Shown in pieces: positions 17,040 through 57,036 of a DNA stretch of 64,000 nt (positions within the stretch are counted from its first letter, which is position 1; each line of letters starts with the position of its first letter). The position numbers and the translations under genes are program-made. The DNA comes from Guptibacillus hwajinpoensis (GTDB taxonomy: Bacteria; Bacillota; Bacilli; Bacillales; Guptibacillaceae), in contig NZ_LELK01000004.1 of NCBI RefSeq assembly GCF_001039475.1, positions 1,269,676 through 1,333,675 of the forward strand, written 5' to 3'. The notes under the pieces were generated by a model. That model saw only the letters and a program-made list of their open reading frames with translations. It was not told the origin of the DNA and did not search any database.

Positions 17040-17170
17040 TTAAATATCGGAAACAAAGCAAGCAGAAGCGCCCGCTTCTCACCTGATTGACGCCGTAACT
17101 GGTAGTTTGCAGGTACACTGTTTTTATAATTGTGTAATGTGTGGGTGTCGTATGCGCCGACGCTTTTTTT
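17040..17170 (+). promoter_or_regulatory. L20-type autoregulatory leader of infC-rpmI-rplT
   Basis: Leader with GCAGAAGCGCCCGCTTCTC, then a terminator-like hairpin GTGTCG / CGACGC (17145-17163) ending in TTTTTTT, well before infC. In B. subtilis ribosomal protein L20 binds this leader and promotes termination. The hairpin is seen; assignment to the L20 leader family is from context and resemblance. Confidence 0.7.
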
Positions 17171-17251
17171 ATGCTTTGAACCGAATATATAAACCATTTA
17201 ATGACATCATGTTAGATGATCATCATCGAACAATAACCATGGAGGTGGCTG

Positions 17252-25725: not shown

Positions 25726-25985
25726 CAACTTATATATGTTAAAAACAATGATAGAGAGTAGTAAGCTGCCGCTGCCTTTGCAGGGAGGAAATGCCGTGAC
25801 TGGAAGCATTTCTACAGGGAAGCCGCCGAATTCGCTCTGGAGTTGCCGCTTAGTTGGTATACAAAAGCGGATCGGTGACAAACCGTTATTCTTTGCTTAA
25901 GGCTGATAGATTCATTCTATCAGTGAATTAGGGTGGTACCGCGAAATCAAATCTTCGCCCCTTTACTGGGAGCGAGGATTTTTTT
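25726..25985 (+). promoter_or_regulatory. T-box leader of pheST
   Basis: Conserved T-box AGGGTGGTACCGCG at 25930-25943; terminator arms ATCTTCGCCCC and GGGAGCGAGGAT then TTTTTTT; stem I with AGAGAGTAGTAAGCTG. A Phe codon TTC at 25831-25833 in GCCGAATTCGCTC is the likely specifier, consistent with tRNA(Phe) sensing. Confidence 0.94.
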
Positions 25986-30944: not shown

Positions 30945-31005
30945 ATAGGAAGAATAGTCACAACAGTAAATACAACACATGTGTATGTATAAACAATGCG
31001 TACCT

Positions 31006-31077
31006 TCCCTATAGTCCAGCAATTAACGGTTGCCGGGTAGAAACTTATTGGACCCTATTTCCAAAATTATATAGAGA
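31006..31077 (-). promoter_or_regulatory. Guanine-type purine riboswitch
   Basis: Read on the minus strand: P1 TCTCTA / TAGGGA, J1/2 TATAAT, P2 TTGGA / TCCAA, J2/3 AAGTTTCTACC, P3 CGGCA / TGCTG, J3/1 GACTATA. The discriminating base is C (GACTA), which specifies guanine or hypoxanthine rather than adenine. With the terminator before nupG it should switch the transporter off when guanine is plentiful. A weak promoter TTGCTA-N17-TAGATT lies just upstream. Confidence 0.93.
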
Positions 31078-31281
31078 TAAATGTGAAGTTGTATTAATCA
31101 ATCTAGCAGAAGAAATAGTAGGTAGCAAGACCTGTTTAGATAGTAGGAATCTTTAAAAAATTCATGCTCACTATGTAAGCGTTCGACAAAATACGAGGGA
31201 TTGTTTCTCTTCACAAGCTTTGATAGAGTACAAAGTAAAAAGCTGAATGACAGCTGTTTTTAAAATTTAGGGAGATGACTT

Positions 31282-45448: not shown

Positions 45449-45760
45449 ATGGCTATTGTACACGCAACAGATCAAAGTTTCACAGAAGAAACAAGTGAAG
45501 GTCTTGTACTAGCGGATTTTTGGGCACCATGGTGTGGCCCATGTAAAATGATTGCACCAGTTCTTGAAGAGCTTGATGCTGAAATGAGCGACGTTAAAGT
45601 TGTTAAACTTGACGTTGATGAAAATCAGGAAACGGCAAGCAAGTTCGGTGTTATGAGTATCCCAACACTACTAGTAATCAAAAATGGTGAGGTAGTTGAC
45701 CAAGTAGTTGGCTTCCAACCAAAAGAAGCACTTGCACAAACACTTTCAAAACATCAATAA
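45449..45760 (+). CDS. trxA: Thioredoxin
   Basis: 103 aa, ATG behind GAAGGAGGA. Active site APWCGPCK with C29 and C32; cis-proline in SIPTLLV; buried Asp in LADFWAP. The main cytosolic disulfide reductant. In B. subtilis uvrC follows directly; here about 9 kb of other genes intervene. Confidence 0.97.
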
Positions 45761-45770
45761 TTGTTTAAAG

Positions 45771-45803
45771 AGCCCTGTTCTCAAAAGAACAGGGCTTTTT
45801 TTT
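45771..45803 (+). terminator. Terminator of trxA
   Basis: AGCCCTGTTC-tcaaaa-GAACAGGGCT followed by TTTTTTT. Confidence 0.9.
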
Positions 45804-45835
45804 GTGGTGATTTATTTTCTGACAAATTTACGGTA

Positions 45836-45864
45836 TTGACACTGATAATCGTTCTCGATATAAT
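45836..45864 (+). promoter_or_regulatory. Promoter with Fur-like operator in its spacer
   Basis: A consensus promoter TTGACA-N17-TATAAT. The spacer contains TGATAATCGTTCTCG (45843-45857), which matches the 7-1-7 Fur box TGATAATnATTATCA in 11 of 14 defined positions. Binding there would block the polymerase. Confidence 0.6.
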
Positions 45865-45903
45865 CGTCATGGATAAAAGACCATACGAAGAGGAGTTTTA
45901 CAT

Positions 45904-47115
45904 ATGAAAAAGTCTATGATGTTATTCGCTTCAATTACACTAGCAGGTACAGTACTTGTAGCTTGTGGTAATGATTCAGAAAATGCTGCAAATACTGCGA
46001 ATACAGAGAATAATTCTCAGGAAGAATCTACAGATTCTCAATCTTCAGATCAAAGCAAGGAGATGTCAGTTGATGAATCGGCAACTGCTAAACAAGTCGA
46101 TGCATATAAAGCGATTACAGACGAATTGAATAAAATGAAGGAAGATCAAGAAGTAGATTGGGATCTTGTTGAATCGACTTATACTAGCGACTTGAAAAGC
46201 GCTGTAAATGAAATCGATAATGAGTTTGATCAATTTATTACAACAGGTATTCAGGCTGGAACATCAGGAGAGCTTGAAGAGAATGTGGCACGCCAGATGA
46301 TTGATAAAGGCACTCAGTCTTATTTCTACCAGAAACAAAAGTCTTTGCAGCAAGCAGTTATTGATGCGAAAGACGCTGATAAAAATGATGAAGCAATGCT
46401 TCATTTTGAAGAAATTAAGTTACTTGTAGAAAATGTTTTTGTTCCTACAGCTGAAAAACGTGATTCTTATTATGAGCTTGAAGGAGAGTCAAGCATCGTG
46501 GAGAACATTAACAGTGGATTGACTGCACAGGAAGAAGCTCTTTCTAGTGAAGAAGGTATGGAAGATTTTGCGGTAGCGAAGCAAATTACGGATAAGTCAA
46601 TTTATAGAAGCTATTACCTTGCTTCAAATTCTTACGCTGAGAAAATTGAAGAAGCAGTAAATGCTGGTGATTCCGAGGAACTACAAATCATGCAAACGGA
46701 AGCATTAGGATTTTATCAGGCAATTAAAGGGTCACTAGCTGGTGGAGATGAAGAAGCAGCAGCTAAACTAAGTGAGTTATTTGATATTAGTAATGAGCCT
46801 GCTTCTATTAAAGCAGACGAAGTTTCTAACCTATTCGTGAAGGCATTTGCAGGGAAAATCAAAGGCTATCACGAAAAAGTTGCAGAAATGGCTGAAGAGG
46901 GCAAAATTACTGATTCAAAAGAAGCTGCTATGGAAGCAAATGTCTTTTTGAAAGCTATTGAAATGCCAGTAACTGATGCAATCGGTCAAGAGGAAGCCGA
47001 TGCGCTATACGCAGATGCAACAAGCTGGTATGAAGCAATTGATAACGATAATGCTGAAGAAGCAAACAAGCTAAGTGAGCAAATTTTGTCCGAATTACAA
47101 AGTGTAGTAGAATAA
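45904..47115 (+). CDS. Lipoprotein with three internal helical repeats, possibly iron-linked
   Basis: 403 aa. Signal peptide with lipobox LVAC, lipidated C21, then a Ser/Glu/Asn-rich linker (22-60). The rest is acidic and helical, with three related segments at about 129-180, 225-275 and 306-355. The first two share the pattern AxQxxDKxxxSYYY and an EA-rich helix. I do not recognise a named family with certainty. The repeated helical pattern, surface location and Fur-like box in the promoter suggest a role in metal binding beside the FTR1-type genes at 51-53 kb. No histidine-rich or EfeO catalytic motif is visible. AGGAG ribosome binding site. Confidence 0.65.
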   Translation: MKKSMMLFASITLAGTVLVACGNDSENAANTANTENNSQEESTDSQSSDQSKEMSVDESATAKQVDAYKAITDELNKMKEDQEVDWDLVESTYTSDLKSAVNEIDNEFDQFITTGIQAGTSGELEENVARQMIDKGTQSYFYQKQKSLQQAVIDAKDADKNDEAMLHFEEIKLLVENVFVPTAEKRDSYYELEGESSIVENINSGLTAQEEALSSEEGMEDFAVAKQITDKSIYRSYYLASNSYAEKIEEAVNAGDSEELQIMQTEALGFYQAIKGSLAGGDEEAAAKLSELFDISNEPASIKADEVSNLFVKAFAGKIKGYHEKVAEMAEEGKITDSKEAAMEANVFLKAIEMPVTDAIGQEEADALYADATSWYEAIDNDNAEEANKLSEQILSELQSVVE

Positions 47116-47127
47116 TGATAGAATTTG

Positions 47128-47155
47128 ACGGCCGCTAAATGCGGCCGTTTCTCTT
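47128..47155 (+). terminator. Terminator after the lipoprotein gene
   Basis: ACGGCCGC-taaat-GCGGCCGT followed by TTCTCTT; U-run is imperfect. Confidence 0.65.
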
Positions 47156-47202
47156 GTATAAAGGTTATTTATATGAGGTATTTCAAGTGAAGGGTGCAAT
47201 TT

Positions 47203-48144
47203 ATGAACATATTGATTACAGGTGGAGCTGGTTTTATTGGAAGTAGTCTCTCCAAGTCACTATTAAAAGCAAACCACGAAGTCTCAATTATCGATCACTT
47301 TTCAACATCCTACCATGTTGAAAGGAAATTGGAGCAGGTTGAACAAATTAAAAAGATCGGTCCTGTTGCGATACATGAGTTTGATTTACTAGATGAGGAG
47401 AAAACAATCGCTCATTTTAATGAACACTCTTATGATGCCGTTATTCATCTGGCTGCACTACCTGGCGTACAGCCTTCTTTAACGGATCCACATGCTTACA
47501 TTGATCAGGATATAAAGGTTACTGTTAACGTGTTAAGGGCTGCTGGAATTTCAGGTGTATCCCAAGTGTTATTTGGTTCTTCTTCTTCGGTATACGGTGA
47601 TCAAGATGGTCCAGTTTCAGAATCCATAGCTAATGGCAAAGTAAAGTCACCTTATGCAGCTGCTAAAGCAGGAGCAGAGTCATTCTGCCATGCCTATCAG
47701 TCGCTTTATGGTTTCAAATTAACAATCCTTCGTTTTTTCACTGTTTATGGACCATGGGGGAGACCCGATATGGCCATTCCACTCTTTCTAACAAAACTTT
47801 TAAATGGAGAGCCAATCCATATATACGGTCGTCATCAATCTAGGGATTTTACATACATCGATGATATTGTAAACGGTATATCCCTTGCACTTAATCAAAC
47901 GAAACAGTCTGAAATTTATAACCTCGGCTCTGGAAAACCGGTTCGTCTTGAAAACTTAATTCGTCTTTTAATGAACTATTTTCCTGATGCAAATGTAGTA
48001 GACGAAACGTTTCGTGCTGGCGATGTTAGACACACGTGGAGTAACATAGAGAAGGCGAAGAAAGATCTTGGGTATGTTCCTGAAATAGGATTCGAAGAAG
48101 GGTTGCGGAGAACAGTCGAATGGGCAAAAAATTATCACGATTAG
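47203..48144 (+). CDS. NAD-dependent sugar-nucleotide epimerase
   Basis: 313 aa short-chain dehydrogenase (extended type). Start is the ATG after AAGGGTG; a GTG at 47194 is part of that site. NAD site ITGGAGFIGSSL, catalytic YxxxK in SPYAAAKAG, and RFFTVYGPWGRPDMA and the SRDFTYIDDIV motif, which are common in UDP-glucuronate or UDP-glucose 4-epimerases. The exact sugar cannot be told. First gene of a tight four-gene operon; the next gene overlaps its 3' end by 25 nt. Confidence 0.85.
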   Translation: MNILITGGAGFIGSSLSKSLLKANHEVSIIDHFSTSYHVERKLEQVEQIKKIGPVAIHEFDLLDEEKTIAHFNEHSYDAVIHLAALPGVQPSLTDPHAYIDQDIKVTVNVLRAAGISGVSQVLFGSSSSVYGDQDGPVSESIANGKVKSPYAAAKAGAESFCHAYQSLYGFKLTILRFFTVYGPWGRPDMAIPLFLTKLLNGEPIHIYGRHQSRDFTYIDDIVNGISLALNQTKQSEIYNLGSGKPVRLENLIRLLMNYFPDANVVDETFRAGDVRHTWSNIEKAKKDLGYVPEIGFEEGLRRTVEWAKNYHD

Positions 48145-49064
48145 TAAAGTGGAATGTTGGCTTGCTCCTAGTCATGCTGTTTATTTTTCTTCTATTAAAT
48201 AAGTTTAGTTTATCGATGGTAACCTCTTTTAGCTTTAAACTCCTAACTCATCCAATTGTGCTTCTTACGATGGTTGGAGGGTATACAGTCTCATTCTTAT
48301 TGCGAGGCTGGTGCTGGCAACTTCTTGTTGATCAGAAGATCAAATTCAAAGTATACATAGCAGGAATTTTCTATAGCTTGTTTTTTAATCATCTTCTTCC
48401 GTTTAAAGGAGGGGAAGCCGTTCGAATGGGAGTCTTGGCACAAGAACAGCAAGGGAAATGGGGAACAGCTATTCAATCGGTTATTCTATTACGCATGGTT
48501 GATATGTTCTGGTTGGGTGTATTTGCGATTGTCGGTGCTGCTTGGATAGGAATTAACGTTCATCTAAATTTTCTAATTGGATTGCTTTTTGGTTTAGTAG
48601 CTTTAGGTGTACTAGTCGTTCTATTTCTTAAAAAAAGTAAGTTGCAATCCGTATTCAAAAGGCAGTGGCTCACGTTAAGAGACCTTATGATTTCATCGTA
48701 TTTCCCTGTCGTTATCGTGCTATCATGTATAAGTTGGATTGCTGAAGGGGTTGTGGTCTTCGGTGTTGCAAGCCTAACTGAATACACTTTTACTTATTGG
48801 AATGCGATGTGGGTAACGGCACTATCGGTGGGGGCAGGTGTGTTTCAGCTAGCACCAGGAGGATTTGCAACCTATGAAAGTGTTATGAGTTTCTCTTTAA
48901 ACCAGGTCGGTTTTGGTTGGGAGGAAGCTCTTTCGATTGCGCTTATTACACATGCATTTAAATACCTCTATTCTTTTGCTGCCGGTCTGGTAGCGTTTTA
49001 CCTTTATCCTCTTCAATTTCGTAGATTGAAGACGTTTCTAACTAAGAAAGGAGAAACATCATGA
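48120..49064 (+). CDS. UPF0104/AglD2-type membrane protein (LPG synthase TM domain)
   Basis: 314 aa, about eight membrane helices. Matches the lysylphosphatidylglycerol synthase transmembrane/flippase-like group: FNHLLPFKGGEAVRMGVLA in the third loop and LAPGGFATYE near residue 240 are its marks. No C-terminal GNAT-like synthase domain, so it does not make lysyl-PG itself. Proposed flippase or glycolipid-handling role; inference. Translation is coupled: its start lies inside the epimerase gene and its stop overlaps the next start (ATGA). Confidence 0.8.
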   Translation: MGKKLSRLVKWNVGLLLVMLFIFLLLNKFSLSMVTSFSFKLLTHPIVLLTMVGGYTVSFLLRGWCWQLLVDQKIKFKVYIAGIFYSLFFNHLLPFKGGEAVRMGVLAQEQQGKWGTAIQSVILLRMVDMFWLGVFAIVGAAWIGINVHLNFLIGLLFGLVALGVLVVLFLKKSKLQSVFKRQWLTLRDLMISSYFPVVIVLSCISWIAEGVVVFGVASLTEYTFTYWNAMWVTALSVGAGVFQLAPGGFATYESVMSFSLNQVGFGWEEALSIALITHAFKYLYSFAAGLVAFYLYPLQFRRLKTFLTKKGETS

Positions 49065-50521
49065 AGCAAGCATCAGGTTTTGAGAAAATAGCAGCGAGGT
49101 GCTGGAACCTTCTTAATGAAGGTAAGCCATTCACCCCAATCTTTGTTACTGGGACTGTATTGTTAGTGTATCTAACACAGTGGTCTTCAATCGAGTTCTG
49201 GGAAGCCTTTATTATTGGACTTGGTGCCATTCTTCCCCTTCTTGTTTTATATTACGTATACGATTTTCCACTTTTTTTAAGGAATTATTTATGGCTACCA
49301 TTAATGGCATATTTATTACTATTTGATACATACGCCTTATCAGCAGCATTGCTTGGAGTTGGTTTGTATTTCTTCTTTACCGTTTTTTTCTGGGGAACAT
49401 TCTATTACCACCTACGAATCGGGACAAGCTGGCTGAACTTCACACGTTTCTGGAAGTTAGTGCTTAAGAATAGTGATTCAACAAGTGGAAATGCCCAAGA
49501 ACAATTGCCTAAGTTTCTATTGATCATACCAATATGGTCGATGGTCATTAATGCATCAATGGGTTCTGGGCCTTCGTTCCAGTGGAGCAACCTTCTATAC
49601 TTATACGCTGGGATCTGGTTGTTTAGCTTTGTTTTGCATCGGAATTTATTTGATTGGAAACCTGAGGTCAAACCTGATTATACAAAGGCGATACCGAATA
49701 CTTCTACAAATGAACGCGTTATGATGATCGTCATTGACGGAATGCGTAAAGAACGTTTTCAAGAAGCGAATACACCATTTCTCGATTCATTAAAGAAAAA
49801 CGGGACAGAATACAGTCAAATGGAAACTGTTTACCCAGCACGAACGGTGGTGTGTTTTTCTTCCATGATGACAGGCACCTACCCTCTCGAGCATGGTATA
49901 AAGTCAAATATGGTTTGGAAGCTTGGGGTAAAGGTAGAAACCATTTTTGATACTTTACGTAAAGTTGGAAAAAGCGGACGTCTCCTTGGTATCGCTCATC
50001 TTGTTGATGCAATGGGTGACGATGTTGACACAGTAACAGCTGTTATGAACAACGATATAGCTGATACCAAAATCATGGAAGGCGCACGCCGAATCATGTT
50101 GGATAAAAATCCTGACTTCTTCGCAGTACAGCTAATCGGTACCGATCAAACTGGCCATGCAAGAGGTGTATTGTATGATGATTACATTCAAAAAATTGAA
50201 GAAGCAGATAAACTAGTTGAGGAATATGTTGGATGGTTAGAGGAACAAGGATTCATGGAAAATACAACATTAATTGTTTGTGCTGATCATGGTCAAGCAG
50301 ATGGAATTGGTGGGCATGGCCATCTCGATGAAGGGGAAAGGTACGTACCTTTCTTCATGAATGGTCCTTCAATAGCAAAAGGGAAAATCATTGAGGACAA
50401 GCATAGCCTTACATCTGTAGCACCAACTGTTGCTCATCTGCTAGGAGCTCCAATCCCTTCTCATAGTAGGGGAGCTATTCTAGAAGATGCTTTTCAAGAT
50501 AGGAAGGAAGAAATAAGGTAA
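49061..50521 (+). CDS. Membrane-anchored phosphodiesterase/phosphatase of the alkaline phosphatase superfamily
   Basis: 486 aa. N-terminal half (about 20-205) has six or more membrane helices. The C-terminal half (about 220-480) is a type I phosphodiesterase/nucleotide pyrophosphatase-like domain: VIDGMRKERF (first metal Asp), PARTVVCFSSMMTGTYPLEHGI (nucleophile Thr/Ser region), QLIGTDQTGHARG and VCADHGQADGIGGHGH (metal Asp/His). Such enzymes cleave phosphodiesters or transfer phospho-groups to envelope glycans. The substrate is unknown. 4-nt overlap with the upstream gene and 1-nt overlap with the downstream one. Confidence 0.82.
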   Translation: MKQASGFEKIAARCWNLLNEGKPFTPIFVTGTVLLVYLTQWSSIEFWEAFIIGLGAILPLLVLYYVYDFPLFLRNYLWLPLMAYLLLFDTYALSAALLGVGLYFFFTVFFWGTFYYHLRIGTSWLNFTRFWKLVLKNSDSTSGNAQEQLPKFLLIIPIWSMVINASMGSGPSFQWSNLLYLYAGIWLFSFVLHRNLFDWKPEVKPDYTKAIPNTSTNERVMMIVIDGMRKERFQEANTPFLDSLKKNGTEYSQMETVYPARTVVCFSSMMTGTYPLEHGIKSNMVWKLGVKVETIFDTLRKVGKSGRLLGIAHLVDAMGDDVDTVTAVMNNDIADTKIMEGARRIMLDKNPDFFAVQLIGTDQTGHARGVLYDDYIQKIEEADKLVEEYVGWLEEQGFMENTTLIVCADHGQADGIGGHGHLDEGERYVPFFMNGPSIAKGKIIEDKHSLTSVAPTVAHLLGAPIPSHSRGAILEDAFQDRKEEIR

Positions 50522-51294
50522 TGAAACAACACGTAATAGTATTTTTACCTGCTCATAATGAAGAACATGCGATCGGAGAAGTTATTAAGCAGATTCCACG
50601 TCATTTTCACTCGAATGTTCGTGTGAGTGTGCTCGTTATCGATGATGGATCAACTGACCGAACAGTTGAAGTAGCAAAACATTATGGCGCAGACTATGTT
50701 TATTCTTTTACTGAAAATCAAGGGCTAGGTGCTGCAGTGCGTAAGGGTCTATCCCATTCTCTTGAACTCGGCGCGGATATTGGTGTTATGCTCGACGCTG
50801 ATAATGAGTATCCAGCATGGCAACTTCCCGAACTTTTAGATCCTCTATTACGTGGTGAAGCGGATTATGTAATGGGTTCACGCTTTAAAGGAACGATTGA
50901 TGGAATGCGTCTTCATCGTCGATTAGGAAACTACTGCTTTACTTTCCTACAATCTCTTCTATTACAGAAGTGGATCTATGACGGTCAATCCGGAATGAGA
51001 GTATTCTCAAAACAGGCGATGGAGCACGGCGAAATTATTCATGATTACAACTATGCACAGGTCTTAACCTTAAACCTTGTTAGAAAAGGGTTTAGGGTGA
51101 AGGAAGTGCCGATCGCCTATCAGGTTCGTTCTACAGGAGAATCTTATATTAAATTTAAAGCGTATGTTACATCGGTTTTACCAGCCATTATGAAAGAGAT
51201 AATGCGACCAGTAGAAAAAGTGAAAATCGATGAGAATGCGCATGTATTAGCGAGAAATCCTATTCCGGATTTCGTGGCAGAAAAGTCACAATAA
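50521..51294 (+). CDS. Family 2 glycosyltransferase
   Basis: 257 aa GT-A fold, similar to dolichyl- or undecaprenyl-phosphate glycosyltransferases. Nucleotide site VLVIDDGSTDRTVEVA, DxD as MLDADNEYP, and acceptor loop GQSGMRVFS. No C-terminal membrane helices, so it would act at the inner face of the membrane, probably charging a lipid carrier. Start overlaps the phosphodiesterase stop by one base (TAATG). Confidence 0.85.
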   Translation: MKQHVIVFLPAHNEEHAIGEVIKQIPRHFHSNVRVSVLVIDDGSTDRTVEVAKHYGADYVYSFTENQGLGAAVRKGLSHSLELGADIGVMLDADNEYPAWQLPELLDPLLRGEADYVMGSRFKGTIDGMRLHRRLGNYCFTFLQSLLLQKWIYDGQSGMRVFSKQAMEHGEIIHDYNYAQVLTLNLVRKGFRVKEVPIAYQVRSTGESYIKFKAYVTSVLPAIMKEIMRPVEKVKIDENAHVLARNPIPDFVAEKSQ

Positions 51295-51308
51295 TTGCAG
51301 ATCATTTA

Positions 51309-51337
51309 TTGACTTAAGAGCTGATAATCATTATCAT
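51309..51337 (+). promoter_or_regulatory. Fur-controlled promoter of the iron permease genes
   Basis: TTGACT-N17-TATCAT. TGATAATCATTATCA (51322-51336) is a perfect 7-1-7 Fur box within the promoter, extended on the right by TTATCA. Repression by Fur when iron is sufficient is expected. The gap to the next start is very short. Confidence 0.88.
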
Positions 51338-51358
51338 TATCAATGAGGAGGATTTTCA

Positions 51359-52123
51359 ATGATAAAACGTATTTTTTCAATAGCATTCATAGTAGTATTG
51401 ATCAGTACACTTTCTGTTCCTGATCTGGCTCAGGCCTATTCTTATGGTGACCCAACAGAAGAGATTGTGGCTGAAGCATATGTTGAAATGTCTGCTAAAC
51501 TAAACGAGTCTCCTCCAAAGTATGAAGAAGCGAATGAAATATTTGCTTCAGTAAGTGACGAAATAAAGTTACATATGGGTGATGATGCTGTTCAAGCAGT
51601 TCAAAGCGAGCTTGATGATGAGAATAAAGAAGCTGTCATTAAAAATATGCAGGAGATTCTTGTTCTCAATATTTCACGTCGACTCGAAGGCGTTGAACAG
51701 GATTTTGAAGAATATGATACAACTAGAAAACTGGTAGGTAAAGCAGATGCGACATACAAAAAGCTTTCACCAGTTGTTAAACAAGATAACCAGGATCTAG
51801 ATGAAACGATTAAAGCTGAATTTGAAACGCTTCTTAACTCTCTAGGTAACCCGGGATTATTCGGTGTTGGTGAGAAAGAATCAGATAAAGAACAATTTAT
51901 TGAAAGCAAAAAGATTATCCTTGATGGTTTAAAGGCTCAATTCGATATGAAATCAGTTGAAATTGGGCACTTTGGCGAAAGCGCCACAGATGAAGAGACA
52001 GCAAGCAACGGTAAAACAGAATGGACAGATCTTGGTCAGTTATCAAATTGGTTACCGCTTGTATTGCTTATTGTCGTGATTGCGAGCGTTGTGATCTATA
52101 CAAAAAGGCGTCGTCGCTCGTAA
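51359..52123 (+). CDS. Exported, membrane-anchored partner of the FTR1 iron permease
   Basis: 254 aa; signal peptide with likely cleavage after AQA (A26), a helical, acidic outer domain (27-225) and a C-terminal membrane helix (about 229-246) ending KRRRRS. Membrane anchored with the domain outside. In many Firmicutes FTR1 proteins a similar N-terminal outer domain precedes the permease on one chain; here it is a separate gene 28 nt ahead of the permease. That makes an iron-capture role likely but not shown. AGGAGG ribosome binding site; Fur box upstream. Confidence 0.72.
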   Translation: MIKRIFSIAFIVVLISTLSVPDLAQAYSYGDPTEEIVAEAYVEMSAKLNESPPKYEEANEIFASVSDEIKLHMGDDAVQAVQSELDDENKEAVIKNMQEILVLNISRRLEGVEQDFEEYDTTRKLVGKADATYKKLSPVVKQDNQDLDETIKAEFETLLNSLGNPGLFGVGEKESDKEQFIESKKIILDGLKAQFDMKSVEIGHFGESATDEETASNGKTEWTDLGQLSNWLPLVLLIVVIASVVIYTKRRRRS

Positions 52124-52151
52124 CATTTGATTGTAGAAAGGGGAAAACATA

Positions 52152-53090
52152 ATGGAAATTCAGGCATTACTGATTATGTTCAGAGAAGTACTTGAAGCAC
52201 TTCTCATCATTGGAATCATTACAACATACATGAAGCGAATGGGACAGTGCCAGTATAATAAATTTGTCTGGCTCGGTGCAGGGCTTGCCGTATTAGCAAG
52301 CGTTGGGGTAGCCATGTTGTTCCAGGTTGTCTTCACAGGGTTCGCTGCGATGGGAAGTGAGATCTACCTGAAGATTTCCATTATGTTAATCTCTGCTGTA
52401 CTACTTACTCAAATGGTTTTCTGGATGGCTTCACATAGCCGCGATCTTAAAGGTAAAACTGAAGGTAAGATGACCCAGCTCATTACAACAGGTAACATTG
52501 TAGGAATGGTGATTCACTCATTTCTTGTTGTTCTTCGAGAAGGTGTTGAGACTGTCTTCTTCTTCGCTGCCATTACAGGTGGGGATATCGGCAAAGGGTT
52601 TGAAGGTTGGGGTGCCATTACAGGAGTCATAATTGCTTCTGGTGTTTCCTACTTCTTCTTTAAGGGTACAATGCGTATTCCACTTAAATCTTTCTTTAAA
52701 GTAACAGGGATTTTCATTGTGTTGATTGCAGGTGGATTGTTTGTTCAGGGCATTTCGATGATGCAAGATATTAAAATGATCGGTAGCGTAATGCCTCACG
52801 TATACGACTTAACGTGGTTCCTACCTGAACATCCGATTGATTATGCTCACTACGTTCGTGATCATGGTGTGGCGCCACTGCTCTCTGGTGATATAGGGAT
52901 ATTCTTTAAGGCATTGTTTGGATATTCATCTATGCCATCACTTGAAGAAATTGTTGGATATATCGGATACTTCACCGTCATTTACCTACTTGTTAATACG
53001 AAAAAAGAACCTGCGAAAGCTAGCGTAAAAGAACCAAAAACGGCTGTTTATAACACATCAAACAAGATGAATGAATCTGCAGTTAAATAA
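52152..53090 (+). CDS. efeU: FTR1 family iron permease
   Basis: 312 aa, seven membrane helices. Both iron-binding REXXE motifs are present: REVLE (11-15) in the first helix and REGVE (129-133) in the fourth. This is the EfeU/Ftr1p core without the N-terminal outer domain that many Bacillus homologues carry. Couples import to an oxidase or peroxidase in known systems, but no EfeB-type peroxidase or multicopper oxidase gene is in the window. Cotranscribed with the preceding gene under a perfect Fur box. Confidence 0.9.
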   Translation: MEIQALLIMFREVLEALLIIGIITTYMKRMGQCQYNKFVWLGAGLAVLASVGVAMLFQVVFTGFAAMGSEIYLKISIMLISAVLLTQMVFWMASHSRDLKGKTEGKMTQLITTGNIVGMVIHSFLVVLREGVETVFFFAAITGGDIGKGFEGWGAITGVIIASGVSYFFFKGTMRIPLKSFFKVTGIFIVLIAGGLFVQGISMMQDIKMIGSVMPHVYDLTWFLPEHPIDYAHYVRDHGVAPLLSGDIGIFFKALFGYSSMPSLEEIVGYIGYFTVIYLLVNTKKEPAKASVKEPKTAVYNTSNKMNESAVK

Positions 53091-53102
53091 TTAACTAAGG
53101 TG

Positions 53103-53136
53103 CAAGGCGATGCATATCGTCTTGTGCTTTTTCTTT
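53103..53136 (+). terminator. Terminator of the iron permease operon
   Basis: CAAGGCGAT-gcat-ATCGTCTTG followed by TGCTTTTTC. Confidence 0.7.
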
Positions 53137-53138
53137 AT

Positions 53139-53333
53139 GGCTATGTTAGCTCATATTGTTAATTTCTCGATTTTTGGCTCATTCGAGTGAAACCTCAGTT
53201 TTACTCGCCTTTCAGCTCTGCTGAAAGGTCGCCCTGTGATGACCAATCGCTTCGAGCAAATTCATTTGCTCAGGCGATTGGTCACCACAGGGCATAAATG
53301 AGCCAAAAATCAACACTGTTGATTAACATAGCC
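53139..53333 (+). repeat. Family 2 dispersed repeat, copy C (195 bp, most complete)
   Basis: Terminal inverted repeat GGCTATGTTA / TAACATAGCC (the right arm reads GATTAACATAGCC). Inside, TTTTTGGCTCATT pairs with AATGAGCCAAAAA. The centre is a nested hairpin: GCCCTGTGATGACCAATCGC with GCGATTGGTCACCACAGGGC around GAGCAAAT / ATTTGCTC. There is also CCTTTCAGC / GCTGAAAGG. Non-coding; MITE-like in shape. Confidence 0.88.
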
Positions 53334-53386
53334 TTCTTTATTATTACAAACGTCTTATAATGGATCTAACTAAAGGGTGATGTGGT

Positions 53387-54883
53387 TTGAATCGATTAGA
53401 TGAGAAATTAGTATGGAACAAGATTCTTATATGTACACTATGGATTGTTTCCATTAGTAGTATATTCCTTGTAGTGTGGTGGAGATTTGTCTATGCACTC
53501 GATGTACCGCGTTCGTGGGATCAAGTTGACTTTTCTTTGGCATTAACGAGGTTTGACCTATTTGCTATGCAGCCACATTTCCCCGGGTATCCTTATTTCA
53601 TCCTGGGTGGGATGCTTATTAACGAGTGGGTTGTGAATCCAACTCAGGCTCTTGCAAATTGGAATTCACTTTTGTTATTAACGACTGTTTATCCGATTTA
53701 CAAACTTAGTCGATCCTATCTCTGGGCGACAGGGAGCGTAGTAGCGGTAGCGATCATTCAATCAATGGTTTTTCTAAATGTTATGGCTGTTCAACCGATG
53801 AGTGAAGCAGCTGCTGTAGCGATCCTCTGGTGGTATATCTGGATATTACAGAGTGCCTTTCAACGCAAGAACTCGACAGTATTTGTTGTCTTGTCATCTT
53901 TATTATTTAGTTTCTTATTAGGTATACGCCTTTCGTACCTACCGTTTGGGATCGGACTTTTACTCCTTCTATTATCACGAAAAAAGCAATTCAAAACCCG
54001 AGAGTACGCCTCGTTTTTAATTATTCAAATAAGCATTGCTTTATTGTTTCAGTTGATATGGGTGGCTGGACTTGCAGTCTCAGAAGGCGGAGTAGCAGCG
54101 TTTATTCAATTAGCGCTCGGTTTCTCGAATGGACATTTTCAGGATTGGGGAGGAACGGCGGTTTCAGCTTCTTCATCTATTCTTGAACGACTTTCCAATT
54201 TGCTGTTCTATAATATCGCTTGGACTGGTTTCGCTGGACAATCTACTTTGTTGTTAGGCGTGATTGCACTATTCTCTGTCTATGCAGCGATTGCATTAGT
54301 GAAAAGAATAAGAAAGTCTAGTGGTACTCCGTTCGTTTGGGCTTACGTAGCAATGTTTATTGGTTATTTCCTGTGGGCTTTATTTGCGCAAAATGTTGAT
54401 AAGCCAAGGCATATCCTTCCTCTACCAACGATGGCACTGTTTGGCCTTGCTACCATTATTGTGAGTGAGCATACTCTTCGTACTAGAGTAATGGTTTTTT
54501 TATTATTCGTAGTGGTTACACAAACTACTTTCTCGTACGTCGTTATGAAAGAGGCAGAAAAGCCAGCAGCTGTTCATCAACTTATTGATTATTTAGAAGA
54601 GATCAATGAACCGGTTATCGTGTATACATGGGAAGAAACAAGGGTAATGGGATATGTAGATGCCGACTTTGAACATGAACAGATCTATACGTATTCTACT
54701 TTTCGATCAGATAAAAGCTATTACGAAAACCATCGAATCTTCTTAACAGGGGAAGTTGTAGATGGATTTAAAGAACAGGGAATTCCAATTGAGAATTCAA
54801 TAAAGAGAGTCATAAACTTTGATTCATCATCCTTGTATGATCCTATTTATGACAACATTGTTTTATATGAGTATCGCGAATAA
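53387..54883 (+). CDS. Multi-spanning GT-C-like membrane protein
   Basis: 498 aa, TTG start 6 nt after AAAGGGTGA. About ten or eleven membrane helices, with a long first outer loop (RFVYALDVPRSWDQVDFSLA) that carries Asp residues where GT-C glycosyltransferases have their catalytic acid, and a soluble C-terminal domain of about 110 residues. This suggests a lipid-linked sugar transferase of the ArnT/PMT type; the family is not certain. Separated from the epimerase operon by the iron genes, but could use lipid-linked sugars made by it. Confidence 0.65.
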   Translation: MNRLDEKLVWNKILICTLWIVSISSIFLVVWWRFVYALDVPRSWDQVDFSLALTRFDLFAMQPHFPGYPYFILGGMLINEWVVNPTQALANWNSLLLLTTVYPIYKLSRSYLWATGSVVAVAIIQSMVFLNVMAVQPMSEAAAVAILWWYIWILQSAFQRKNSTVFVVLSSLLFSFLLGIRLSYLPFGIGLLLLLLSRKKQFKTREYASFLIIQISIALLFQLIWVAGLAVSEGGVAAFIQLALGFSNGHFQDWGGTAVSASSSILERLSNLLFYNIAWTGFAGQSTLLLGVIALFSVYAAIALVKRIRKSSGTPFVWAYVAMFIGYFLWALFAQNVDKPRHILPLPTMALFGLATIIVSEHTLRTRVMVFLLFVVVTQTTFSYVVMKEAEKPAAVHQLIDYLEEINEPVIVYTWEETRVMGYVDADFEHEQIYTYSTFRSDKSYYENHRIFLTGEVVDGFKEQGIPIENSIKRVINFDSSSLYDPIYDNIVLYEYRE

Positions 54884-54959
54884 AGAAAATAGCGGGATTG
54901 TGGTACAATGAGAGGCGAACATAGATACGCCTTTAAAGGGAATAGTGAGGTGAGTCAGC

Positions 54960-56741
54960 ATGGAGCAAAATCTTAAGAACAAGCTAGCAATCCTTCCTGA
55001 CCAGCCCGGGTGTTACTTAATGAAAGATCGCCAGGGAACGATTATTTACGTTGGGAAAGCAAAGGTTCTGAAAAATAGAGTACGTTCATATTTTAGTGGA
55101 TCACATGATGGAAAGACACAGCGTCTAGTAAGTGAAATCCGGGATTTTGAATATATTGTTACATCTACAGATCTTGAAGCACTGATTCTAGAGCTTAATT
55201 TGATTAAAAAGCATGATCCTAAATATAATGTCATGTTAAAAGACGATAAAAGCTATCCATACATTAAAATCACATCTGAAGAGCAGCCACGTCTAATTAC
55301 CACGAGAAAGATAAAGAAAGATAAAGGAAAGTATTTTGGACCTTATCCAAATGCGTATGCAGCTAGTGCTACAAAGAAGTTGCTAGATCGTCTTTATCCA
55401 CTACGGAAATGTAGAAAAATGCCTGACCGTGTTTGCCTTTACTACCACATTGGTCAATGTCTTGCACCTTGCGTGAAAGATGTTACGAAAGAACAAAATA
55501 AGGAAATGATTGATGGAATCACGCGTTTTCTAAATGGCGGCCATCAAGAGGTTAAAGAGGACATTGAACGGAAGATGGGTCTTGCTGCTGAGAATATGGA
55601 TTTTGAGCGAGCAAAAGAATACCGCGATCTTATGTTTCATATCGATAAAGTAATGGAAGTACAGAAGATCCAATCCAATGACGGAATTGATAGGGATATC
55701 TTTGGTTACAGCTACGATAAGGGCTGGATGTGTGTTCAAGTCTTCTTTGTTCGTCAGGGAAAGCTTATTGAAAGAGATGTTTCACTGTTTCCATTCTATA
55801 ATGATGCGGAAGAGGATTTCTTAACCTATCTCGGTCAATTCTACTTACAGAAAAACCATCCAAAACCGAAAGAATTGCTTTTGCCACAGCATGTTAATGC
55901 TGAGATGGCACAAGAATTGTTAGAGATTCCTGTTCACCAACCGAAGCGAGGAAAGAAAAAAGAGCTCGTTGAATTGACAGAAAAAAATGCTACGATTGCT
56001 CTTAATGAGAAATTCTCTCTCATTGAGCGTGATGAGAAGAGAACAATTGATGCAGTCGAGAATTTAGGGGATCAACTCGGAATTGACGCACCACTCCGAA
56101 TCGAAGCATTTGATAATTCTAATATACAAGGGACAAATCCTGTATCGGCTATGGTTGTTTTCCTAGATGGCAAGCCTAAGAAAAATGAGTATCGTAAATA
56201 CAAAATTAAAACGGTTGAAGGTCCAAATGATGTTGGATCGATGAAAGAAGTCGTTCGTAGACGCTACTCAAGAATGTTGAAGGAAAGTGGCCCCCTACCG
56301 GACTTAATTATTATTGATGGTGGAATTGCTCAAATTCAAGCTGCAAAAGATGTGCTTGAGAATGAACTAGGACTTGATATACCTGTATGTTCTTTAACAA
56401 AAGATGAGAAACACAAAACATCACATTTACTCATAGGTGATCCACCTGTTGCTGTCTATTTATCAAGAAACAGCCAGGAGTTCTACCTATTGCAGCGAAT
56501 ACAAGATGAAGTCCATCGCTTTGCGATAACGTTCCATCGTCAGCTCAGAGGAAAATCTATGCTGAAATCAAGTCTTGATGATATTCCAGGTATCGGAGAG
56601 AAGCGTAAAAAAATGCTTCTTAAACATTTTGGCTCAATTAAAAAAATGAAAGAAGCAAGTGTAGAAGAATTACAAGAAGCAGGTTTACCTCAAGCTGTTG
56701 CAAAGGAGTTACTTGTAAGATTCGAAAATCAAGCGAATTAA
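54960..56741 (+). CDS. uvrC: Excinuclease ABC subunit C
   Basis: 593 aa. GIY-YIG nuclease domain at the N-terminus ([19 protein letters not shown]), UVR motif (about 195-235, [20 protein letters not shown]), the RNase H-like nuclease domain ([29 protein letters not shown]), and a C-terminal helix-hairpin-helix pair ([20 protein letters not shown]). Makes the dual incisions of nucleotide excision repair. Confidence 0.97.
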
Positions 56742-56819: not shown

Positions 56820-57007
56820 AAGTGATGGTAGAGGCGCAAAAACCATTAGTAAGTTCTCTCTAGAGTGATAAGACTCGTCGACAGGAGCTGAAAGGGGAAT
56901 TTGCCGAAGTGGAAAGACGCTTATCTGTCTGAAGCTGGATCTGTGTTGAATAAATGCAGAGCTGTCATCCAATACCTACCCTGGAATTGGATGGAGAACT
57001 ATCTCAC
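56820..57007 (+). promoter_or_regulatory. Lysine riboswitch (L box)
   Basis: L-box core features are in order: GTAGAGGCGCAA, AGTAAG, AAAGGGGAATTTGCCGAAG, GAGCTGTCATCC, GGATGGAGAACTATC. The ends AGTGA / TCAC form P1. With the terminator that follows it should shut lysC expression in high lysine. Confidence 0.94.
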
Positions 57008-57036
57008 AAAGGGACGTTTTCTTGGATTTGTTTTGA

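Follow-up and report, generated by a model that had tools for sequence, protein, structure and literature searches.

What might a bacterium make with four overlapping genes for a sugar-nucleotide epimerase, a flippase-like membrane protein, a phosphodiesterase and a family 2 glycosyltransferase (GT2)? The genes occupy positions 47203 to 51294 of a 64,000-nucleotide stretch of the Guptibacillus hwajinpoensis genome (assembly GCF_001039475.1, contig NZ_LELK01000004.1, positions 1,269,676 to 1,333,675; hereafter the window), and a preliminary description of this DNA had read them as a joint route that makes, attaches, flips and then transfers or trims a sugar. We propose, with a probability of roughly 55%, that they encode the cytosolic and flipping half of a lipid-carrier-based uronic-acid pathway that is controlled by Fur and works with a ferric-iron importer. 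This figure, like the degrees of confidence worded below, is a judgement and was not computed. The four genes, with the short names used here, are:

47203..48144, + strand: epimerase of the UDP-glucuronate/UDP-galacturonate 4-epimerase type (epi; Pfam Epimerase E 4.9e-60, residue signature)
48120..49064, + strand: flippase-like membrane protein of the LPG_synthase_TM family, lacking a synthetase domain (flip; Pfam LPG_synthase_TM E 2.8e-26)
49061..50521, + strand: protein with six transmembrane (TM) segments and a domain of the nucleotide pyrophosphatase/phosphodiesterase (NPP) type, predicted to face the cytosol (pde; Pfam Phosphodiest E 2.3e-29)
50521..51294, + strand: GT2, resembling polyprenyl-phosphate-sugar synthases (gt2; Pfam Glycos_transf_2 E 4e-24)

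Gene packing, conserved neighbours and Fur boxes

The open reading frames (ORFs), all on the + strand, overlap by 25 nt (epi/flip), 4 nt (flip/pde) and 1 nt (pde/gt2), and an in-frame GTG at 47194 lies 9 nt 5' of the epimerase ORF start at 47203. These overlaps, as well as the four family labels matched by Pfam, agree with the preliminary description. We compared the best 80 of 140 confirmed phosphodiesterase relatives and their loci. Where both genes of a pair were present, the junction was overlapping or at most 10 nt wide in 72/73 (epi/flip), 75/75 (flip/pde) and 79/80 (pde/gt2) loci; the junctions flanking the set are looser, with medians of 116 and 74 nt on either side. The tight packing of the four genes is beyond chance, and because it is kept across relatives, the four genes form a unit. 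The idea of a joint product is supported. Far from rarely co-occurring, which the preliminary description had named as grounds for giving up its reading, all four genes stand together in 73 of the 80 loci, and pde and gt2 in 80 of 80.

The set lies within an eight-gene block, in the order lipoprotein, epimerase, flippase-like protein, phosphodiesterase, GT2, EfeX, FTR1/EfeU permease and GT-C. The other genes and sites in this region are:

45836..45864, + strand: consensus promoter TTGACA-17-TATAAT (12/12), with a Fur-like box of 11/14 at 45843-45857 between the hexamers
45904..47115, + strand: lipoprotein, a remote relative of FEA1-related lipoproteins and putative surface iron binder (NF038033 41.8 bits, cut-off 250)
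47127..47149, + strand: terminator-like hairpin between lipoprotein and epimerase, a weak call (9 such sites in 45700-55000, 6.6 expected by shuffling)
51309..51337, + strand: promoter-like site TTGACT-17-TATCAT before EfeX, overlapped by a perfect Fur box (14/14) at 51322-51336
51359..52123, + strand: EfeX, exported, with a C-terminal TM segment and YSYG and LGNPGLFG motifs (sequence features)
52152..53090, + strand: FTR1/EfeU iron permease (PF03239 E 7.1e-38, 131 bits, cut-off 25.3)
53387..54883, + strand: GT-C-like membrane glycosyltransferase, candidate final transferase (PMT_2 21.2 bits, cut-off 26.1)

All eight genes keep this order in 67 of the 80 loci. In 41 of these trxA or uvrC is no more than 9 kb away, which is also the situation in the window, and the other 26 have neither gene that close; one further locus holds all eight with the efeU and GT-C positions exchanged. 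Because the order is constant at differing chromosomal sites, the block is either held together by function or moves as a unit. Incomplete loci lack the lipoprotein (three), flip (three), epi (two) or both epi and flip (two). At one of those without the lipoprotein (L106) the contig starts just ahead of epi, and two loci, both from Fictibacillus, lack lipoprotein, EfeX, EfeU and GT-C. In Fictibacillus the halves of the block are split apart, yet both are retained: genome G096, the source of locus L077, has the four genes by trxA/uvrC and groups lipoprotein, EfeX, EfeU and GT-C elsewhere (L157), and G201 carries a second locus (L158) composed like L157.

Among 397 genomes of the order, pde was found in 93 (E <= 1e-30), with 40 of 135 genera represented; this count includes G116, whose gene is broken, and G045 and G060, with one stop each. 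The EfeU subfamily (E <= 1e-60) is present in 93/93 pde-positive genomes versus 1/304 negatives, and the sole negative genome that has it (G006) holds an efeU fragment containing stops. The Fisher p of 2.8e-91 for this pairing overstates the evidence, as the genomes are related and not independent. In another 13 pde-negative genomes FTR1 was matched only distantly, at E 1e-20 to 1e-30. No match to pde at E <= 1e-30 was found among 72,556 plasmid records.

In G006, which belongs to the same genus, the block has been lost between trxA and uvrC with an efeU remnant left behind (L160 8784-9835), a natural loss, and in G116 (C88:3086-4520) pde is disrupted by many stops, with a stop-free efeU match about 1.6 kb downstream.

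Regulatory sites point to the same association. Boxes were scored against the Bacillus-type Fur box consensus and counted within -150..+60 of ORF starts, with the 80 loci of the order (1.63 Mb) as background. A box of at least 13/14 precedes efeX in 75 of 78 loci; at the lipoprotein ORF start, 46 of 75 loci have one of at least 13/14 and 63 of 75 one of at least 12/14. Elsewhere in the 1.63 Mb there are 8 boxes of at least 13/14, all within about 310 nt of a lipoprotein, EfeX or EfeU ORF start; seven of them lie downstream of the assigned start, which is often placed too far upstream. In near relatives (L046-L048) the box at the lipoprotein promoter has the same letters as in the window and also scores 11/14. 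In the Fictibacillus cores L077 and L098 the epimerase ORF is preceded by a 13/14 box, at distances of 46 and 36 nt; in L157 and L158, boxes of 13/14 and 14/14 stand at lipoprotein and EfeX. Iron limitation would be the stress of interest, in place of the phosphate or salt stress suggested by the preliminary description, which had missed the FTR1/EfeU permease, the FEA1-like lipoprotein and the Fur boxes. Membership of the four genes in an iron-uptake unit is, in our view, very probable.

EfeU also matches NF041756 (E 5.9e-53, 180 bits, under the cut-off of 255). The NF038033 model is matched at E <= 0.001 by 45 of 48 aligned lipoproteins (48 of 76 copies were taken into the alignment), and the AlphaFold2 (AF2) model of the lipoprotein is all-helical (pLDDT 89). 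At E <= 0.001 EfeX has no family match in Pfam or NCBIfam; it is conserved beside FTR1, and a shorter form occurs beside FutA-like ferric-binding genes. The block resembles EfeUOB/FTR1 uptake in its FTR1/EfeU permease, exported partner proteins and Fur-type regulation. It differs in that no EfeO or peroxidase (EfeB) family was matched at E <= 0.001 in the eight block proteins (the rest of the genome was not searched for them), and in adding a glycan module of epimerase, flippase-like protein, phosphodiesterase, GT2 and GT-C.

Enzymes of the glycan module

The solved structures closest to the epimerase include 6zl6, which we take to be the UDP-glucuronic acid 4-epimerase of B. cereus (UGAepi); residue numbers given in papers on that enzyme fit the 6zl6 sequence. 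According to passages in two of these papers, Tyr149 of UGAepi is catalytic, and the carboxylate is bound by Thr126, Ser127, Ser128, Thr178 (main chain) and Arg185 (PMC7984243, PMC12338863). The catalytic pair Tyr149/Lys153 corresponds to Y151/K155 here, and the carboxylate-site counterparts are S127 (Ser replacing Thr126), S128, S129, T180 and R187; all 77 of the 77 block epimerases share both sets. The enzyme is thus like UGAepi in its catalytic and carboxylate-binding residues, and differs in the Thr-to-Ser replacement and in its Fur-linked operon. The preliminary description had called it a sugar-nucleotide epimerase; the class stands, and the residues place it with the UDP-glucuronate rather than the UDP-glucose type, with UDP-glucuronate 4-epimerase activity predicted. 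Where epi is missing from the stretch examined (G109, G773 and the genomes of L091, L072 and L087), an epimerase with the same signature is found elsewhere in each genome.

A UDP-glucose-dehydrogenase-like gene lies nearby in 17 of the 80 loci. In eight of them it directly follows GT-C, and in nine it is found upstream of the lipoprotein, on the opposite strand in all but one case. The locus dehydrogenase is related to TuaD, scoring 567.7 bits where the cut-off is 700, and the best solved match of the L052 copy is named 'UDP-glucose dehydrogenase' (E 1e-121). The source genome of the window has six genes of the dehydrogenase family above cut-off, outside the block. A relative is present in 90/93 pde-positive versus 207/304 negative genomes (Fisher 5e-10), a weak test, as the family is common and the genomes are related; the 90/93 was counted by eye. 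Taken together, UDP-galacturonate (UDP-GalA), or UDP-glucuronate (UDP-GlcA), is well supported as the predicted sugar donor. The GT2 would use this donor, and the sugar is probably a uronic acid.

The GT2 resembles dolichol-phosphate mannose synthase (5mlz, E 1e-16), and its DxD residues D92 and D94 are invariant in 15 of 15 sequences. No TM segment rose above the hydropathy threshold when averaged over 81 sequences, a crude method. We regard the protein as polyprenyl-phosphate-sugar-synthase-like and predict the transfer of galacturonate (GalA) to polyprenyl phosphate. The neighbouring LPG_synthase_TM protein (314 aa) consists of the TM region only and scores 28.8 bits against NF033480 (cut-off 600); the lysyl-phosphatidylglycerol synthase MprF has a C-terminal synthetase domain, which the window protein lacks.

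In the AF2 model of the phosphodiesterase (pLDDT 82.8), an NPP-fold domain comes after six TM helices. This domain superimposes on 7n1s with a Z of 27.9 and an rmsd of 2.7 over 261 residues, a match that ENPP7 and others equal. In NPPs, a Thr acts as the nucleophile, Asp and His residues bind the metals, and an Asn lies in the substrate site. The corresponding residues D226, T262, N283, D362, H366, D409, H410, H419 and H421 are invariant in 81/81 block copies and 4/4 distant copies. The protein therefore shares with NPPs (Xac NPP, ENPP1, ENPP7) the fold, the Thr nucleophile, the Asp/His metal ligands and the Asn at the NPP position. It differs from them in that six predicted TM helices, with a conserved KNSDSTSGNAQEQ loop, precede the domain, and in that the domain is predicted to be cytosolic. 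No other protein of the eight in the block has as large a share of columns at 97% identity or more (200 of 486, 81 sequences); its alignment drew on 47 of 81 copies, and conservation counts for block proteins used all block copies found. One loop, FTRFWKLVLKNSDSTSGNAQEQLPK (residues 127-151, window about 49439-49513), lies between TM helices 4 and 5 and is near-invariant in the order and in the four distant copies.

On which side of the membrane the catalytic domain works bears directly on the pathway. Mean lysine plus arginine (K+R) per sequence is 4.8, 4.0 and 3.9 at the N-terminus, the 4-5 loop and the catalytic-domain side, versus 0.2, 0.1 and 0.4 on the opposite side; the short 2-3 loop, which falls on the charged side, has a mean of 0.01. 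Cys265 is invariant, and an invariant Cys is unusual outside the Firmicute cell. Because of this charge distribution and Cys265, we place the domain in the cytosol, where it is predicted to act beside the GT2. The outer-facing enzyme of the preliminary description is therefore not favoured; the outer-facing phosphotransferases of the LtaS and EptA type have their catalytic domain outside. A C265-C407 disulfide was considered as proof of an outside location and dropped, since C407 is Ala in three of the four distant copies. The enzyme might hydrolyse a UDP-sugar or a sugar carried on a lipid, transfer a phosphate-linked group, or produce an acceptor lipid.

The GT-C-like gene lies within 9 kb of pde in 78 of the 80 loci. 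In an alignment of 25 of 79 block copies and two distant ones, D45 and D48 are invariant (27/27), and 11 of the 27 sequences match PMT_2 at E <= 0.001, the L155 copy with 58.8 bits. Its membership in the unit, suggested by the preliminary description, is borne out; as final transferase it stays a candidate, with a sub-cut-off PMT_2 score in the window. That the sugar passes via a polyprenyl carrier to the GT-C seems to us somewhat likelier than not. A weak PDB match of the GT-C profile to an antiporter subunit (E 0.0026) was taken as chance.

The module outside the order

Of 398 genomes searched across the phylum, 12 have pde, and seven of these 12 lie outside the order. Neighbourhoods were studied in G404, G572, G773 and G435; G490, G451 and G578 (L151-L153) were listed as ORFs only. 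In three families outside the order, the pde-GT2 pair stands beside the ferric-binding proteins of ABC importers, which replace FTR1. G572, G773 and G435 share a flip-pde-GT2-EfeX-lipoprotein core, a GT-C of the same family and a ferric-binding protein; in the two copies compared with solved structures, those of G773 and G572, the latter is close to 2pt1, 'Iron transport protein' (E 2.1e-97 and 7.4e-94). The ABC permease and ATPase families were confirmed in G773, G435 has ORFs matching in size and start, and in G572 these genes would fall past the fetched stretch. A box of 13-14/14 precedes the ferric-binding gene by 45 to 110 nt in all three genomes. G773 has a further box of this strength ahead of GT-C and G572 one ahead of the epimerase, and in L154 a 13/14 box precedes the epimerase by about 110 nt. 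These boxes weigh less, as the AT-rich loci L154-L156 also hold 12-13/14 boxes inside genes.

In the high-GC genome G404, the genes after pde and GT2 encode a cupredoxin-like lipoprotein (EfeO match weak, at 25.7 bits), an FbpA-type ferric-binding protein (7w3w, E 9.4e-75), a GT-C-like protein (weak match), an ABC permease and ATPase, and a UGAepi-type epimerase at G404:C1:539835. We read the ABC parts as iron transporters because of their solved ferric-binding relatives; NCBIfam is ambiguous here, its best-scoring models being those for aminoethylphosphonate, thiamine and polyamine, none of which reaches its cut-off. Searching PF03239 in the seven out-of-order genomes, we found no FTR1 in five and distant copies elsewhere in two. 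Because the module stands beside ABC ferric-binding proteins outside the order, its tie to ferric import seems to be a general one, not confined to FTR1.

The cupredoxin-like lipoprotein at L150 10962-11645 (high-GC) adjoins GT2 and has a repetitive Ser/Thr/His/Gly linker, making it a possible glycan acceptor. An apparent pde-GT2 fusion in L150 (a 737-aa ORF) was rejected: by translation and Pfam, only the GT2 half is real and pde lies in another frame.

Proposed pathway and competing explanations

From these parts we infer the following sequence of steps. A UDP-glucose dehydrogenase would provide UDP-GlcA, which the epimerase would convert to UDP-GalA. The GT2 would load GalA onto polyprenyl phosphate at the inner leaflet, and on that side, too, the NPP-type phosphodiesterase would process a phosphodiester linked to a lipid or a nucleotide. 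The LPG_synthase_TM protein would flip the lipid, and the GT-C would transfer the acidic sugar to an extracytoplasmic acceptor, possibly a wall glycan, the lipoprotein or EfeX. The carboxylates would then hold Fe3+ close to the FEA1-like lipoprotein, EfeX and the permease. The make-attach-flip-transfer logic of the preliminary description is thus supported. The last step is the most tentative: that the product binds iron for uptake, and does not serve another need of iron starvation, is to our mind slightly less probable than its opposite.

Several known pathways resemble the proposed one, the first of them in its logic. The rhizobial polyprenyl-phosphate-GalA pathway (RgtE with RgtA-D) follows the same logic of UDP-GalA, soluble GT2 and GT-C; the pathway here differs in being Gram-positive and Fur-linked, in having pde and an LPG_synthase_TM protein and in having no lipid A acceptor. 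The ArnC/ArnT 4-amino-arabinose pathway likewise uses a GT2 acting on polyprenyl phosphate, a flipping step and a GT-C, and the solved GT2 matches include chains named undecaprenyl-phosphate 4-deoxy-4-formamido-L-arabinose transferase; no ArnA or ArnD exceeds its curated cut-off in the block, however, and the sugar here is predicted to retain its carboxylate. In lipoteichoic acid (LTA) glycosylation of the CsbB/GtcA/YfhO type, the GT2 has C-terminal TM segments, whereas none was detected in the window-type GT2. Among open-licence papers, we found no title or abstract opening that describes the gene set, which is not proof of absence; the preliminary description had likewise not recognised it as a named pathway. 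We found no earlier description of a link between uronic-acid glycan genes and an iron importer; the genes here probably build an acidic sugar coating that works with the importer.

Several findings count against this proposal. Neither flip nor epi is strictly required in place, being absent alone (3/80 and 2/80) or together (2/80), and the three flip losses show no ORF in the gap where flip would stand. Two genomes with pde (G037, G080) have no dehydrogenase at E <= 1e-90; the third pde-positive genome without one at this threshold is G116, in which pde is broken. The FEA1 match of the lipoprotein is far under cut-off (NF038033, 41.8 versus 250 bits), and its fold was unmatched by Foldseek at E <= 0.001, the best VIA-align result (Z 9.5, rmsd 17.0 over 235 residues) being unconvincing. 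The GT-C profile gave no glycosyltransferase match against the PDB. Finally, no Fur box of at least 12/14 precedes the window epimerase, so that its control by Fur needs read-through from the lipoprotein promoter past the hairpin at 47127-47149, and that promoter's own Fur box reaches 11/14 only.

Some of the same evidence could be read differently. If the GT-C placed uronic acid on the iron-binding lipoprotein or EfeX, the glycan would belong to the capture protein and not to the wall. This fits the PMT_2-like, that is O-mannosyltransferase-like, character of GT-C in 11 of 27 aligned relatives, the presence of lipoprotein and EfeX genes alongside the module in L154-L156 and in most of the order's loci, the Ser-, Thr- and Asn-rich linker after the lipobox of the window lipoprotein, and the cupredoxin-like L150 lipoprotein beside GT2 with its long Ser/Thr/His/Gly linker. 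Protein glycosylation is nonetheless unlikely in our view, as at least three of four other lipoproteins (L051, L058, L064, L103) have Glu/Lys/Gln-rich linkers with few Ser/Thr and no sequon is known; we had considered the Ser/Thr-rich linker as a conserved glycosylation site and dropped it, since it is not present in most of these four. Fur control would also be compatible with envelope remodelling under iron limitation, in which surface charge is altered or phosphate-rich polymers are replaced with no iron bound for uptake; the dehydrogenase near the block is TuaD-like, and in teichuronic acids uronic acids replace phosphate polymers. The genome-wide pairing with one EfeU subfamily, along with the ferric-binding neighbours in other families, is tighter than general remodelling predicts, and we rate this explanation a little lower still. 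A generic glycolipid or teichoic-acid-related pathway with no iron link, as the preliminary description framed it, would be permitted by the enzyme classes alone but is very improbable given the Fur boxes, the EfeU co-occurrence and the split loci with Fur boxes.

Within the proposed uronic-acid pathway, the phosphodiesterase could serve turnover, breaking down surplus UDP-uronate or lipid-linked sugar, and not be a building step. Its best structural neighbours are NPP hydrolases (7n1s); the highest conservation of the eight proteins and a GT2 partner in 80/80 loci would be unusual for a clean-up enzyme, and we find this role rather doubtful. A bolder conjecture, held with similar reserve, is that the systems form a distinct class of iron acquisition, in which a Fur-controlled, lipid-linked uronic-acid pathway yields an acidic Fe3+ ligand for the lineage's own importer (FTR1 in the order, FutA/FbpA-type ABC elsewhere). 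Its hallmark enzyme would be the cytosol-facing NPP-fold membrane protein, which may be a covalent-Thr phosphoglycosyl (or phosphodiester) transferase; we know of no such chemistry for an NPP fold on the cytosolic side.

FTR1-type and Fbp-type importers are well known, and how ferric iron is concentrated at the membrane of thick-walled bacteria is less clear. If the proposal is true, a glycan module travelling with both importer types would be a concrete, testable answer, and a function would be given to a highly conserved, uncharacterised phosphodiesterase of 93 of 397 sampled genomes of the order.

Two loci come from records with unexpected titles, L092 (Chryseobacterium sp. ISL-80) and L074 (Paenibacillus sp. 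FJAT-29882). Their block identities are typical of Bacillaceae, and the titles may be wrong; L092 also carries etfA, trxA and uvrC at 72-73%. The RNA elements of the window are ordinary: a lysine riboswitch before lysC (56821-57009), a T-box (25739-25965), a purine riboswitch (30992-31094, - strand) and an L20 leader (17054-17175).

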